Notes under the pieces: generated by a model | Told to the model about the DNA's origin: nothing | Seen by the model: only the letters and a program-made list of their open reading frames with translations | The model's database searches: none | NCBI GenBank assembly: GCA_023301405.1 | Contig: JALZUX010000409.1 | Coordinates: 1 to 12,664 of the forward strand | DNA: 12,664 bases | From: Granulosicoccaceae bacterium | GTDB taxonomy: Bacteria; Pseudomonadota; Gammaproteobacteria; Granulosicoccales; Granulosicoccaceae | Reading direction: 5' to 3' | Made by a program: the position numbers and the translations under genes | Shown: positions 1,255-12,664 of the stretch, piece by piece | Numbering within the stretch: the first letter of the stretch is position 1 | Layout of the letters: every line of letters begins with the position of its first letter

Positions 1255-1766
1255 GCGATGATGCTTTTTCTAGGATTCTGTTTTTCTGATTTGTTAAAGA
1301 AAAAGGCCTATATCACTAATAGATCGGTAAGCGCATTGACTTCGATTGATGATGTCACCTTGGTTTCCGCTAGTGGAAATAAGTAGATATCCCATATAAT
1401 GGTGTGTTGACTAACCCTCAATAGACCATAACGGTTTTAGCTTGGAGGTATCCGTGCTTCGTCACAGAGGTTGTAGCAAGTTTGCGTGCAGCACTCACCA
1501 GTGCTGATATCATGGTGAAGTCACTAAAAAAAGGATTGGTTTAGATGCTGAGCTCTTGAGGTTTGAGGGGTAAAAAGCAGGAAGGCCTTACCTGCTGCGA
1601 AAAGCAAGTTCGAAAGAATTCGCCTTATGGATATCGCAACAATGATGATTCGCAAGAATCATAAAACTGCTGCTTAAAAGTGTTTAATATGAATGTTCCT
1701 GATAAAACGGTACGTGCAGCAAATTCATTTTCATCAGGCTTGACGGTCGATAGTGGGGAGTACTAA
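1255..1766 (+). pseudogene. pyrH: Decayed UMP kinase gene, 5' end lost
   Basis: No intact gene lies between tsf and frr, where pyrH normally sits, but translation in shifting frames matches the C-terminal two-thirds of PyrH in order. (1) 1258-1386: GFCFSDLLKKKAYITNRSVS resembles E. coli residues about 89-110 (GLAMRDALHRAYVNARLMS); this is the weakest block. (2) 1449-1544: YPCFVTEVVASLR then SADIMVKS aligns without gaps to NPFFTTDSAACLR and EADVVLKA (about 140-164), ending at a TAG after GLV. (3) 1603-1676, another frame: FERIRLMDIA matches LEKELKVMDLA. (4) 1668-1766, a third frame: LKVFNMNVP matches IRVFNMNKP (about 215-223), ending in a TAA two bases before frr. The span is close to that expected for E. 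coli residues 76-241 (about 500 bp), so small indels and substitutions dominate downstream while the first 75 or so codons, with the start, are gone. PyrH phosphorylates UMP to UDP and is normally essential. Alignments were made by eye against remembered PyrH sequence. Confidence 0.87.
1755..1760 (+). promoter_or_regulatory. Ribosome binding site of frr, inside pyrH remnant
   Basis: GGGGAG lies 8 nt before the frr ATG and is embedded in the last codons of the pyrH remnant. It fixes the frr start and gives a reason why the 3' end of the dead gene could be retained. Confidence 0.8.
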
Positions 1767-3187: not shown

Positions 3188-3994
3188 GTGTTAAAACAAA
3201 GAATAATTACGGCCGTAGTGCTGGCAGGTGTTGTATTGTGGGCGCTGTTTGGCTGGTCTGACTTTTGGTATAGCGTCCTGTTACTTGTGGCTGCTTTTGC
3301 CTGTTCGTGGGAGTGGAGTGCATTGGGAAATATAAGTAAGCCCCTCTCTCGGGGGTTATTTAGTTCCGTTGTCACTGTAATCACATGTGTCCTTATCTGG
3401 TTTGGTTCGCCAGAGGTCATGCGCCCACTTGTTCTTGTTGCTGTGTTGTTCTGGATCGCTATTATTCTTGATCTTTACGTCAGGCCTGTGGTGAAAGCAG
3501 ACAATGTTGCGGTGCGGTGGCCCCTGCTATTGCTGGCGGCCACGATACTAGTAGTATCTGTAGCATCGCTGTACCTATTGCGGGTTGAAGAGTCTGCTGC
3601 GCTAATTGTTTACATTGTGGCTTTGGTAGCTGCCGCTGATATAGGTGCATATTTCGCTGGAAAAAAATTTGGACAGCGAAAGCTTGCTGTTGAAATCAGT
3701 CAAGGTAAGACCATCGAAGGGGCTGTTGGTGGCTTGGTAGCGGCGCTGGTGCTGGCATTGTTAGCTGGGCATTATTTCTCCAATGAGCAGACTACGGCAC
3801 TTTCTCTGTTTGTTTTTTCGGTGGTTGCTGCGGTGTTTTCTATTGCTGGTGATTTGTTTGTCAGCCGGGCAAAGCGAACAAAGGGTGTGAAGGATAGTGG
3901 AAGTCTACTGCCTGGCCACGGAGGAGTGCTGGATCGTTTTGACGGGCTGCTAGCTGCGGTCCCATGGATGGTTTTTGCCATACTTTGGGCCTGA
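3188..3994 (+). CDS. cdsA: Phosphatidate cytidylyltransferase (CDP-diglyceride synthase)
   Basis: CdsA makes CDP-diacylglycerol from CTP and phosphatidate at the inner membrane, feeding all phospholipid synthesis. The 268-residue protein is mostly hydrophobic, with roughly eight membrane segments. The family signature runs from Ser226 to Asp252 and contains AKRTKGVKD and PGHGGVLDRFD, with the metal- and CTP-binding acidic residues intact. The start is GTG at 3188, 18 nt after the uppS stop, with TAAGG just upstream; the spacing is short. Its normal downstream partner dxr survives only as a remnant beginning about 36 nt after the stop. Confidence 0.97.
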   Translation: MLKQRIITAVVLAGVVLWALFGWSDFWYSVLLLVAAFACSWEWSALGNISKPLSRGLFSSVVTVITCVLIWFGSPEVMRPLVLVAVLFWIAIILDLYVRPVVKADNVAVRWPLLLLAATILVVSVASLYLLRVEESAALIVYIVALVAAADIGAYFAGKKFGQRKLAVEISQGKTIEGAVGGLVAALVLALLAGHYFSNEQTTALSLFVFSVVAAVFSIAGDLFVSRAKRTKGVKDSGSLLPGHGGVLDRFDGLLAAVPWMVFAILWA

Positions 3995-4030
3995 GGTGCT
4001 GTGACAGTAGAGGGGAAGGTTTGAAGGCTT

Positions 4031-4705
4031 GTCATTTGTATGGCTGGTGCCGGTTTTCCAGAGGCAGTTACATGCCTATTCAGTTAGGTGCTCTGGTGTC
4101 TGTGCAAGCGATCTACTATCGCTAGTGCTCACTGTCTCTGAGGAGCCGTTTGGGAATTGGGCCAGCGCTGAAATGGAGCCTGCAATGGTTCAGCAGGCTG
4201 CCAACCATAGTATGGGCACAAACAACTCAGGTGATTGAGTAATAATGAAGACCAAAAGGCTAGAGATCTCAAAGACATGCAACCTTTTTGATGTTAGTGA
4301 GCAGCAATGTGAAGCGGTGGTGCATCCGCAAAGTGTCATTCATTCGATACTTAGGTATTCTAGAATTGACACGGGGGGCCTCTGGATCTGAACAGTATGG
4401 CGGCATTAGAATTTGAACCACCTGATGAACAGCCTGTCTTCTGTTTGACGTTGGCGCGCCAGACGATGAAGGCCGGAGGGACGGCTAATGGTGTGCTTAA
4501 TGCCGCAAATGAGTTTGCAGTTGCTAAATTTCTTGGTGAGAAGATCGCCTTTGCCGATATAGCTAAAGCAAACGCACACGCGTTACAACAGCTGTCTTTA
4601 ATGGCGGCAGGTACCGTTGAAGAGCTGAAAAGCATGGATACCGTTGCCCGGCCTTGCGCCGATGATTTTATTAGTAGCGGACTAACCTCCGTGGGGCTGA
4701 ATTAA
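4031..4705 (+). pseudogene. dxr: Decayed DXP reductoisomerase gene; only the C-terminal domain frame open
   Basis: Dxr converts 1-deoxy-xylulose-5-phosphate to MEP, the committed step of non-mevalonate isoprenoid synthesis. In its usual place between cdsA and rseP I see ordered fragments. (1) 4031-4087: VICMAGAGFPEAVTCL, like AAIVGAAGLLPTL, ending in a TAG (weak). (2) 4125-4238: LTVSEEPF (for LTGSGGPF) and NHSMG (for NWSMG), then TGA where E. coli has Ser222. (3) The same frame continues after the TGA with KRLE, then CEAVVHPQSVIHSILRY (for HPQSVIHSMVRY) and RIDTGG. About 25 residues are missing between RY and RIDTGG. (4) A frameshift in a run of six G at 4373-4378 leads into PLDLNSMAALEFEPPDE and an open frame to the TAA at 4703-4705, covering the C-terminal helical domain including GVLNAANEFAVAKFL. 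The first 100 or so residues (NADPH-binding region) are absent, and residues equivalent to His209, Trp212 and Asn227 are changed. An ATG at 4397 could start a 102-residue fragment but has no clear ribosome binding site. Catalysis is not possible. Confidence 0.93.
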
Positions 4706-6084
4706 TGCAAAGTTTTCTACTGAGTCTGGTCGCATTTATTGTTGCGATCGGCATTTTAGTGTCTATTCACGAGTTTGGTCACTATTGGGTCGCTCGCAAA
4801 ATGGGCGTTAAGGTTCTGCGGTTTTCCGTTGGGTTCGGTAAGCCTTTATGGAAGAAGGTCGCTGGCGAGGATCAAACTGAATACGTACTTGCGGCTATTC
4901 CATTGGGTGGCTACGTAAAAATGCTTGATGAGAGAGAGGGAGATGTGCCGGCGGAGGATCTTGATCGGGCGTTCAATCGCAAGAACGTCTGGGCCCGGAT
5001 CGCCATTGTACTCGCCGGTCCTGTTGCTAATTTGATATTGGCGGTATTTCTGTATTGGTTGATTTTTATTGTTGGCATCACTGGTATTGCACCTATAGTC
5101 GGCGCGCCAGTGGCCAAATCTCCTGCTGCAGACGCCGGTTTTGTTGAGGGCGACCGAATCACTCAAGTAGCAGGCAAGGAGACCCCTACCTGGGATACAG
5201 TTTATGTTGGTTTGCTAGACGGCATTGTTGATAGCTCGGATGGCGCCCTCGACATCACTGTAGAAACAGAGGGCGGAAGCACTGAAAAGCGTAGTCTGGC
5301 TTTGGACAGTCGGGAGTTGTTGGCCGGTAACGAAGACATCGTCTACAAGCTTGGCCTTCAGCGCTGGTGGCCTGATGTTGAGCCTGTGATTGGTGGGATT
5401 GTACCAGGTGGCGCTGCCGAGGCGGCGGGCCTACTGGCTGGAGATCGCATTCTCAGTGGTGGCGGTAAAAATATGGAGAGTTGGCGTGATTGGGTTGTAT
5501 TAATCCGTGCCAACCCCGAAAAAATGCTGCAAGTAGAGCTGCAGCGCGATGGTCAATTACTCAACATCGAGTTAACTCCCGGAACTCAAGATCTCAATGG
5601 TTCACCCATAGGTTTTATTGGTGCTCGTGAAACACAGTCACAGCAAGTAATTGATGAAAAACTGCGCACGGTGGAGCGATATTCTCCCGGCGTGGCTGTG
5701 GGTAAAGCATTGCAAAGAACCGGCGATATGATTTCTGTGAGTCTCGGAATGGTCGGTAAGTTGTTCACCGGTGAAGCCTCTCTGAAAAACACCGTGAGCG
5801 GCCCGATATCGATAGCACAGTTTGCTGGGCAGTCGGTGAGTGTGGGCATTGATCATTATCTGAACTTTATTGCGTTGGTGTCGATTAGCCTGGGGATATT
5901 TAATCTGTTTCCTGTGCCTATGCTTGATGGCGGTCATTTGCTTTATTATGCCGCTGAGGTTGTCACCGGCAAGCCTGTTTCTGAAAGAGTACAATTAGCT
6001 GGACAGCAGATTGGTCTCTTGTTGCTCGCTTGTCTTATGGTTTTTGTGTTTTACCAGGATATTTTACGGTTGCTGCCTTCTTGA
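4705..6084 (+). CDS. rseP: Site-2 intramembrane zinc metalloprotease RseP
   Basis: RseP cuts anti-sigma factor RseA within the inner membrane to release sigma-E, and also clears remnant signal peptides. The 459-residue protein starts with a membrane helix carrying the zinc site HEFGH at residues 22-26. Two periplasmic PDZ domains follow (about 115-220 and 222-310; the second has a clear GGIVPGGAAEAAGLLAGDRI). The third zinc ligand is Asp408 in PMLDGGHL, in a C-terminal membrane region. The ATG overlaps the stop of the dxr remnant (TAATG), so ribosomes terminating on the residual dxr frame could reinitiate here. A GGGG about 11 nt upstream is the only Shine-Dalgarno-like element. The gene is complete. 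Confidence 0.97.
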   Translation: MQSFLLSLVAFIVAIGILVSIHEFGHYWVARKMGVKVLRFSVGFGKPLWKKVAGEDQTEYVLAAIPLGGYVKMLDEREGDVPAEDLDRAFNRKNVWARIAIVLAGPVANLILAVFLYWLIFIVGITGIAPIVGAPVAKSPAADAGFVEGDRITQVAGKETPTWDTVYVGLLDGIVDSSDGALDITVETEGGSTEKRSLALDSRELLAGNEDIVYKLGLQRWWPDVEPVIGGIVPGGAAEAAGLLAGDRILSGGGKNMESWRDWVVLIRANPEKMLQVELQRDGQLLNIELTPGTQDLNGSPIGFIGARETQSQQVIDEKLRTVERYSPGVAVGKALQRTGDMISVSLGMVGKLFTGEASLKNTVSGPISIAQFAGQSVSVGIDHYLNFIALVSISLGIFNLFPVPMLDGGHLLYYAAEVVTGKPVSERVQLAGQQIGLLLLACLMVFVFYQDILRLLPS

Positions 6085-10971: not shown

Positions 10972-11741
10972 TTCACCGCACTGCAATTATCGATGCTAAT
11001 GCTCAGGTGCACGAATCCTGTGAGGTTGGTCCTTATGCAGTGATCGGTGCAGACGTAAAAATTGATAAAGGCACTATTGTAGGGCCACATGTCGTGATAA
11101 ACGGGCCGACAACTATCGGTTCCGAGTGCAAGATCTTCCAGTTTGCTTCGGTTGGTGAAGATCCTCAGGACTTGAAGTTTGACGGTAAAGACAGTCGCCT
11201 TGAAATTGGCAGCCGTAATAGAATTCGTGAGTTCGTCACTATAAACCGTGGTACCGGAGGGGGTGGGGGAGTAACCAAAATCGGTGACGACAACCTGTTC
11301 ATGGCTTATGTGCATGTGGCCCATGATTGTCTTATTGGAAGCCACACGGTGTTTGCCAACTCCGCTTCACTTGCCGGTCACGTTAGTGTTGATGATCACG
11401 CCATTCTTGGTGGCTTTTCATTGATTCATCAGTTTAGCCGTGTCGGCGCCCACAGTTTTTCTGGGATGGGGTCTGTGATCAACAAGGATGTGCCTCCTTT
11501 TCTATTAGTGACAGGGCATTATGCTCAAGCGAAAGGTATAAACAAGCAAGGTTTAAAGAGGCGCGGGTTTTCAGATGTTGAAATCACAGCGCTGCAAAAA
11601 GCGTTTGTCCGCCTGATCAGGCGTAAAGGTGTAATAAATGAAGAGTCCCTTGCTGAAGTGAAGCGATTGGCTGAAAAATATCCAGCTGTGGATCAGTTTG
11701 TCAGGTTTTTGCAAGATGGTACGCGCGGGTTTGTAAGTTAA
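10968..11741 (+). CDS. lpxA: UDP-N-acetylglucosamine O-acyltransferase
   Basis: LpxA transfers a 3-hydroxyacyl chain from ACP to UDP-GlcNAc, the first step of lipid A synthesis. The 257-residue product has an N-terminal hexapeptide-repeat beta-helix (about 1-185) and a helical C-terminus with the typical GLKRRGFS. The catalytic His is His119 in VHVAHDCLIG (E. coli His125), and IHQF is at 153-156. At the hydrocarbon-ruler position, where E. coli has Gly173, this protein has Met167 (SFSGMGS). P. aeruginosa LpxA also has Met there and prefers C10 over C14 hydroxyacyl chains, so a 3-hydroxydecanoyl primary O-chain is predicted. The TTG start overlaps the fabZ stop (TTGA), indicating translational coupling. 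Confidence 0.97.
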   Translation: MIHRTAIIDANAQVHESCEVGPYAVIGADVKIDKGTIVGPHVVINGPTTIGSECKIFQFASVGEDPQDLKFDGKDSRLEIGSRNRIREFVTINRGTGGGGGVTKIGDDNLFMAYVHVAHDCLIGSHTVFANSASLAGHVSVDDHAILGGFSLIHQFSRVGAHSFSGMGSVINKDVPPFLLVTGHYAQAKGINKQGLKRRGFSDVEITALQKAFVRLIRRKGVINEESLAEVKRLAEKYPAVDQFVRFLQDGTRGFVS

Positions 11742-11790
11742 TTTAGGAGCGTAGCCACAGTTTTTATGGCGTTCACGAACCTAAATTTTT
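11740..11790. terminator. Probable terminator between convergent lpxA and lpxB
   Basis: AATTTAGG (11740-11747) pairs with CCTAAATT (11780-11787), followed by further T residues. A smaller inner pairing GCCA/TGGC (11754-11757 with 11767-11770) lies inside. The element fills the 50-nt gap between two convergent stops. The stem is A/T-rich and the loop long, so it is a weak candidate; it could serve either strand, because the minus strand reads AAAAATTTAGG into the same stem. Confidence 0.4.
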
Positions 11791-11791
11791 A

Positions 11792-12664
11792 TCAACTTAA
11801 AGCGAGGGTTCTATCGCTATCTCTTTTGGCTTGGTTTTCTTTAACCACTGATTGAATCACCTTGCATAATTGCGCGGCTGCCCCTGCGGTACCTAGCCTG
11901 TTGCGAATTGCGATAAGTTCTGATTTTTGGCTGTTATGTAATTCATCATCGGATAACAGTTGGTCAGTGTGGCTGAAAAGCGTAGCAGCGGATACATCGT
12001 CTTGCAGGAGTTCAGTGACAACCTTACGTTCAGCGATTATGTTGGTCAGGCTGATGTACTCAATAGTGAGCCACCTTTTCACAACGGCATAACTCAGCTG
12101 GTTCATTCGGTAGGCCACTGTCATAGGTACGCCAAGTATCGCAAGTTCAAGGGTGGCGGTGCCTGACGCCACCATGGCTGCCTTGCAGCTTGCTAGTAGG
12201 TTATAGTCCTGAGTATTGATTAGCGTAACCTTGGCACTGCTTTCTTCGATGTGGTCAGTGATTAGCTTTTGTTGGATGGTTTCCGCGACAGGCAAGACAA
12301 ATTCAATTTTTTCATGTTTCTCTTGAAGTTGTGTTGCCGCATCGAGCATCAGGGGTAGCAAAGAGTTAATTTCATTTTTGCGACTGCCCGGTAGCAGGGC
12401 CACCAGTGGGCCGGGGTGCTGTGATACGGTGCTGTTACTGGCATTGATAAGCTTGGTGTTGTCCAGGAGTGGATTTCCAACAAACGTGGTGGGGATATTT
12501 ACGGCTTCGAATATCTTCTTTTCGAACGGTAGAATCACTGCCATGTGATCGACAAGCTTGGCCAGCTCCTGCAGTCGGCCAGGGCGCGATGCCCAGACTT
12601 TTGGGGCGATATAATAAATGACTGGAATACCTATCGACCGCGCTTCGGCAGCGAGCTTCATGTT
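11792..12664 (-). CDS. lpxB: Lipid-A-disaccharide synthase, C-terminal three-quarters (5' end outside window)
   Basis: LpxB is a peripheral inner-membrane glycosyltransferase (GT19) that condenses UDP-diacylglucosamine with lipid X. The minus-strand frame is open to the window edge and gives 290 residues. The first visible residues (NMKLAAEARSIGIPVIYYIA) match family sequence just after a conserved DFN motif, so the Met there is internal and roughly 95 N-terminal residues lie beyond the window. Conserved blocks are KVWASRPGR, ILPFEK, FVGNPLLD, ALLPGSRKNEI, GTATLELAILGVPM, and YISLTNIIAER followed by VTELLQDDV. The C-terminus is complete (TLALS). In most relatives lpxB follows lpxA on the same strand; here it faces lpxA across a 50-nt gap. 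Confidence 0.95.
   Translation of the reverse strand, partial: NMKLAAEARSIGIPVIYYIAPKVWASRPGRLQELAKLVDHMAVILPFEKKIFEAVNIPTTFVGNPLLDNTKLINASNSTVSQHPGPLVALLPGSRKNEINSLLPLMLDAATQLQEKHEKIEFVLPVAETIQQKLITDHIEESSAKVTLINTQDYNLLASCKAAMVASGTATLELAILGVPMTVAYRMNQLSYAVVKRWLTIEYISLTNIIAERKVVTELLQDDVSAATLFSHTDQLLSDDELHNSQKSELIAIRNRLGTAGAAAQLCKVIQSVVKENQAKRDSDRTLALS

Follow-up and report, generated by a model that had tools for sequence, protein, structure and literature searches.

The gammaproteobacterial Granulosicoccaceae host of the DNA analysed here has, as its gene content strongly suggests, very probably switched isoprenoid precursor synthesis from the MEP to the mevalonate pathway. The window, that is, the whole 12,664-nucleotide stretch that was analysed, is contig C409 of a MAG (G000; 704 contigs, 4.03 Mb, 86% complete, 0.3% contamination), which we compared with 13 congeners (G001–G013) and with two further genomes, G018 and G021, that are genus mates of each other. 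In the scenario that we favour, a mevalonate operon would have been acquired laterally from a Rhodobacteraceae-like source and would have rendered the steps downstream of DXP unnecessary, after which dxr, ispG, ispF and ispH would have been eroded by deletions, frameshifts and stops; dxs would have stayed, since DXP also feeds the synthesis of thiamine and pyridoxal phosphate. The mevalonate genes in the same assembly would make the loss of dxr survivable, so that the dxr relic in the window would be the corpse of a replaced enzyme and no sign of auxotrophy.

Anatomy of a dead dxr between cdsA and rseP

Positions 3995–4705 are confirmed to hold a dead dxr in its usual slot (Table 1). The gene order cdsA-dxr-rseP is common to all 12 congener loci fetched, in which dxr carries no internal stops. 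A tblastn search of the window with E. coli Dxr recovered residues 178–262 at 4113–4358 and residues 296–389 at 4379–4660, in order and with a joint E of 1.8e-23, bearing out the initial annotation, which had recognized a dxr pseudogene from fragments in Dxr order; congener Dxr proteins, searched against 3901–4800, gave joint E values as low as 2e-46. The Pfam profile DXPR_C (PF13288) matches at 4370–4702 (E 5e-22), DXP_redisom_C matches the middle piece weakly (E 0.015, below its cut-off), and the Pfam search returned no domain upstream of the middle piece.

Table 1. The dxr remnant, its neighbours and the pyrH remnant in the window
Feature	Positions	Strand	Description
Former dxr 5' part	3995..4106	+	without recognisable Dxr similarity; ~180 codons in congeners
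dxr remnant, middle piece	4107..4358	+	frame +3; TGA at the Ser222 column, 3-residue deletion including Trp212
RIDTGG stretch	4359..4378	+	scar of a ~26-residue deletion, then frameshift
dxr remnant, C-terminal open tail	4370..4705	+	111 codons, PF13288
cdsA	3188..3994	+	intact, upstream neighbour of the dxr remnant; E. coli CdsA match E 3e-40
rseP	4705..6084	+	intact, downstream neighbour of the dxr remnant
pyrH remnant	1446..1739 (in 1136-1768)	+	three stops, between tsf and frr
Genes of the window			tsf, frr, uppS, cdsA, rseP, bamA, skp, lpxD, fabZ, lpxA, part of convergent lpxB

In the alignment to Dxr over 3995–4705, where similarity is present from 4107 onwards, the internal stop, the deletion and the frameshift that had been proposed are all visible and could be located (residue numbers are those of E. 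coli Dxr and were checked against its sequence). The TGA at 4236–4238 indeed occupies the Ser222 column. Pro210-Asn211-Trp212 are deleted in frame (NH---SMG versus NHPNWSMG), so that one of the two further active-site changes claimed, that of Trp212, holds as a deletion, whereas the other does not, His209 being kept. About 26 residues, against an earlier estimate of about 25, are absent between HSILRY and RIDTGG, and the frameshift falls between RIDTGG and PLDLNS. The tail is Dxr-like from 4379, an ATG at 4397 would give a product of 102 aa, and the TAA that ends it overlaps the ATG of rseP (TAATG). At the other end, where the NADPH-binding N-terminus had been described as gone, only 112 bases devoid of Dxr similarity separate the cdsA stop from the first Dxr-like codon (4107), in a place where congeners have about 180 codons.

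Among the active-site letters, S186, H209, K228 and E231 are kept, N227 is changed, W212 is deleted, S222 is a stop and D150–E152 are lost; we take D150, E152 and the other residues named here to be active-site residues of Dxr, and the D150–E152 region to be the one that binds metal. Instead of a single open frame of ~400 codons, the locus has two frames, one TGA and deletions; the NADPH-binding N-terminal domain (PF02670) is lacking, and the C-terminal domain PF13288 is present in the cdsA-rseP slot. With the NADPH domain, the D150–E152 region and Trp212 gone and Ser222 replaced by a stop, the prediction that this locus cannot encode DXP reductoisomerase, and thus cannot make MEP, as had been claimed, is supported. 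A search for a second dxr in the 86% complete genome found none: there was no PF02670 match (nine candidates scored), and PF13288 matched in the cdsA-rseP slot and in no other place.

Among residues invariant in the 12 congeners, G000 breaks 17 of 41 in the middle piece of dxr and 5 of 33 in the tail, compared with a baseline of 0–4.4% in nine neighbouring genes (tsf, frr, uppS, cdsA, rseP, bamA, lpxD, fabZ and lpxA; skp, with only 4 invariant columns, was left out), and decay of the whole window was accordingly rejected. Intact congener dxr genes, each left out in turn, break 0–4.2% of invariant residues over the whole gene. That an intact dxr was made to look broken by sequencing error or chimeric assembly is conceivable for a MAG of 704 contigs and 86% completeness, but we regard it as very improbable given the several separate lesions, the 17 of 41 invariant residues changed, the nine neighbouring genes that are open and conserved, the independently broken ispG on another contig and the failure to find any other dxr in this genome.

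A codon model of seven genomes, run with four neighbour genes included (G000 branch t ~5.8), gave for the middle piece a mean omega of 0.155 on the G000 branch versus 0.057 elsewhere (p ~5e-4) and for the tail 0.121 versus 0.103 (p 0.53); these p values are approximate, since the constrained fits stopped at 15 iterations, and the difference in omega between middle and tail was not significant (p 0.31). In a run of 13 genomes, the corresponding values were 0.122 versus 0.056 for the middle piece and 0.095 versus 0.107 for the tail, with the length of the G000 branch at its bound. Saturation of synonymous sites limits the use of the model, which, read roughly, indicates relaxed constraint for the middle piece. 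As both G000-branch omegas of the seven-genome run lie far below 1, dxr probably kept its function along most of that branch and died late.

The open tail could be a working leader, translated and selected because it brings ribosomes to rseP, even as the catalytic portion decays. The spacing between dxr and rseP in the 12 congeners is at most 2 bases or an overlap in G003, G008, G009 and G013, and 12–155 bases in the other eight. Of the second codon positions that do not vary among congeners, 2 of 48 are broken in the tail versus 16 of 60 in the middle piece (p 0.0017), and the codon-position differences in the tail resemble those between functional dxr genes. Against this reading, the codon model does not part the tail from the middle, and the tail breaks the 5 of 33 invariant residues given above; we consider such a leader rather unlikely, with a role in coupling to rseP being possible.

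Two other features of the window merit description. lpxB is convergent with lpxA (11741–11792), unlike in E. coli; a rearrangement in G000 was rejected as the cause, since the two genes are convergent in all 11 congener loci with both lpxA and lpxB (the twelfth locus, from G007, yielded neither). Between tsf and frr lies the remnant of pyrH, and a search of G000 gave no further PyrH. Full PyrH is present in 9 of the 16 genomes; the remaining seven (G000–G005 and G010) yielded nothing beyond the remnant or weak matches to other open frames of greater length, and in G001–G005 the tsf and frr matches are only 151–418 bases apart. The gene, encoding UMP kinase, is usually essential, and its loss on at least three separate occasions on the species tree leads us to predict a second UMP kinase in these genomes.

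The remaining MEP genes and a mevalonate operon

The damage to the MEP pathway in G000 extends beyond dxr. On another contig, ispG is a multi-lesion remnant whose pieces are still in order but in shifted frames, the middle part having been deleted, and neither ispF nor ispH gave a match in this genome of 704 contigs and 86% completeness. The absence of ispF or ispH is weak evidence by itself, because G000 and the two other operon-bearing genomes discussed below, G010 and G021, are 86%, 89% and 80% complete, respectively, and some congeners with the MEP pathway lack one of its genes as well. The dxs gene is intact, its product having 638 aa when counted from the first start and all three Pfam domains, and the translation of the adjoining gene, judged by eye, looks like that of ispA. 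We also considered that a DXR-like (DRL/DXR-II) reductoisomerase has replaced Dxr and that the MEP pathway is still running, there being strains, described in PMC3847144, that rely on DXR-II after the loss of DXR-I. Given that ispG is broken in G000 and that neither ispF nor ispH gave a match, such an enzyme would not restore the MEP route there, and we regard this explanation as very improbable.

The search for mevalonate genes called for by the initial annotation, made with HMG-CoA reductase against the G000 contigs, led to contig C635, which carries six unbroken ORFs in one operon: mvaA, fni, mvaS, two GHMP kinase genes and mvaD. Matches above the cut-offs of TIGR01835, TIGR01240 and TIGR02151 place three of the products among HMG-CoA synthases, diphosphomevalonate decarboxylases and type 2 IPP isomerases. 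The HMG-CoA reductase lies far over the cut-off of PF00368 and below that of TIGR00533; the two GHMP kinases score above their Pfam cut-off and below TIGR00549 and TIGR01220, and mevalonate kinase and phosphomevalonate kinase were told apart by operon order only. The contig, 8.4 kb in length, holds the operon and one broken gene only, without ftsB, and it is placed in G000 by binning, by similar G+C (0.496 versus 0.476) and by its mvaA, which is 83% identical to that of the congener G010. In G000, the MBL-fold hydrolase gene beside mvaD is broken into two frames (C635, L034 545–1253, minus strand); its counterpart beside mvaD in G010 is intact (254 aa, Lactamase_B_2).

The same operon bears on the idea that isoprenoid synthesis was lost altogether and that the organism lives on supplied precursors. 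The dead dxr and ispG, the failure to find ispF and ispH, and the broken pyrH would all agree with such a dependence, but six unbroken mevalonate genes in a single operon, an assembly of 4 Mb and an intact dxs argue against it, and we hold it to be highly unlikely. Replacement of the MEP route by the mevalonate route remains the favoured reading.

The operon of G010 lies on the opposite strand past eno-ftsB, from which a single MBL-fold gene separates it. In the four congeners for which this stretch was compared, the genes beyond eno-ftsB are ispD-ispF in three and ispF alone in one; the G010 stretch has no similarity to ispD or ispF (eno, ftsB and ispD at these loci were named by eye from translations). 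In the G010 operon, unlike in that of G000, mvaA and mvaS are not separated by an fni (L063 17170–17173). In G011, ispF directly follows ftsB with no ispD between (L213 6696–6804), and dxr, ispG, ispH and ispF were all found in that genome. The operon of G021 is cut by the contig end inside mvaD.

Several congeners possess a different HMG-CoA reductase (for example, L051 in G009 and L056 in G001), with no mevalonate operon in the fetched flanks. The HMG-CoA reductases of G001, G003, G005, G006, G007, G009 and G012 were rejected as members of a C635-type operon: six of the seven have no match to G000 mvaA at 1e-5, the G012 locus matches it at 36%, and none of the seven loci has an fni, mvaS, kinase or mvaD match within the fetched flanks.

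Distribution and order of the losses

PF13288 is found in 50 of the 57 genomes searched, and 12 of the 13 congeners have dxr in open frames of 406–453 codons, the exception being G010, which has none. For the 16 genomes in which ispF, ispH, ispG and dxs were also searched (G000, the 13 congeners, G018 and G021), the mevalonate operon is present in three, G000, G010 and G021, all of which lack intact dxr, ispF, ispH and ispG. The 13 genomes without this operon's HMG-CoA reductase retain dxr in 13, ispF in 12, ispH in 12 and ispG in 10 cases, the scattered misses among them being perhaps assembly gaps. The association between the operon and loss of all four genes has a Fisher p of 0.0018 with kinship among the 16 genomes ignored. 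A strong dxs match is present in G000 and G021 and absent from G010; those in G002 and G006 are only weak.

In G021, 333 bases without any similarity to Dxr at E 0.1 separate cdsA from rseP, and the G000 remnant looks like an intermediate on the path to the clean loss seen there. The dxr slot of G010 is unreadable, its contig starting inside rseP and cdsA not being found.

A species tree from ten proteins of 18 genomes (G010 has six of the ten; G007, G018 and G021 also lack some) places G000 as sister to G001 with support 100, and the dxr of G001 is intact; the clade from which G010 is excluded is supported at 97, and the node after it at 62. Since G001 keeps dxr, and G018 keeps dxr, ispF, ispH and ispG, the losses in G000 and G021 are separate, that is, dxr was lost at least twice; the loss in G010 is probably separate as well.

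The operon tree comprised 27 loci, namely G021, which fails the 75% coverage filter because its contig stops within mvaD, and 26 picked by hand from the 70 of 97 that pass it, the best 80 of 314 relatives having been kept. In this unrooted tree, G000 and G010 are sisters (support 100) on the Rhodobacteraceae side, closest to operons of alphaproteobacteria, and G021 falls with the Nitrincolaceae-type operons, the split having support 100. As the tree is unrooted, the direction of transfer can only be inferred.

A variant compatible with the main reading is that the ancestor of the genus had both pathways and that lineages lost one or the other, in place of a separate gain of the operon by G000 and by G010. 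The sister relationship of the G000 and G010 operons and the MBL-fold gene that stands beside mvaD in both would suit this course of events; however, it would need several extra operon losses, since G000 groups with G001 (support 100) in the clade that excludes G010 (support 97), and the operon proteins of G000 and G010 are closer to each other (summed branches 0.32) than their housekeeping proteins (0.69). We consider dual ancestry possible but doubtful.

Relation to known mevalonate operons and pathway switches

The closest parallel in organization is the operon of the Rhodobacteraceae member Actibacterium atlanticum, which shares all six genes and their order with that of G000 and has an mvaA 73% identical to the G000 one; mvaA of a MAG labelled Maritalea is also 73% identical, and that of Paracoccus zeaxanthinifaciens 67%. 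Unlike in the Rhodobacteraceae case, the hosts G000 and G010 are gammaproteobacterial and have an MBL-fold gene after mvaD, broken in G000. Operons of Nitrincolaceae/Oceanospirillaceae (Marinobacterium, Neptuniibacter and Amphritea by record title) are gammaproteobacterial and have the same content; the G021 operon groups with these, from which those of G000 and G010 are separated by the split with support 100. Within this single family the swap has probably taken place in two or more lineages, with operons of different types.

Close relatives that use different isoprenoid pathways within genera are already in print, and PMC13001223 also notes that operonic mevalonate genes are thought to spread laterally and that incomplete MEP sets occur. 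In its main text, neither 'granulosicocc' nor 'pseudogene' occurs, and no pathway switch in Granulosicoccaceae was found among the literature matches listed, as judged by titles and abstract starts. With paired genomes of the kind described here, one can ask about the cost of a switch, the sequence in which the MEP genes are lost and the reason for the retention of dxs. Replacement of one isoprenoid pathway by another is usually deduced from which genes a genome has or lacks, whereas in G000 displaced genes can still be read in their slots and the sister genome keeps a functional dxr; what is new is a fresh case of the known pathway diversity within genera, with the remnants in place and an intact sister genome for comparison.
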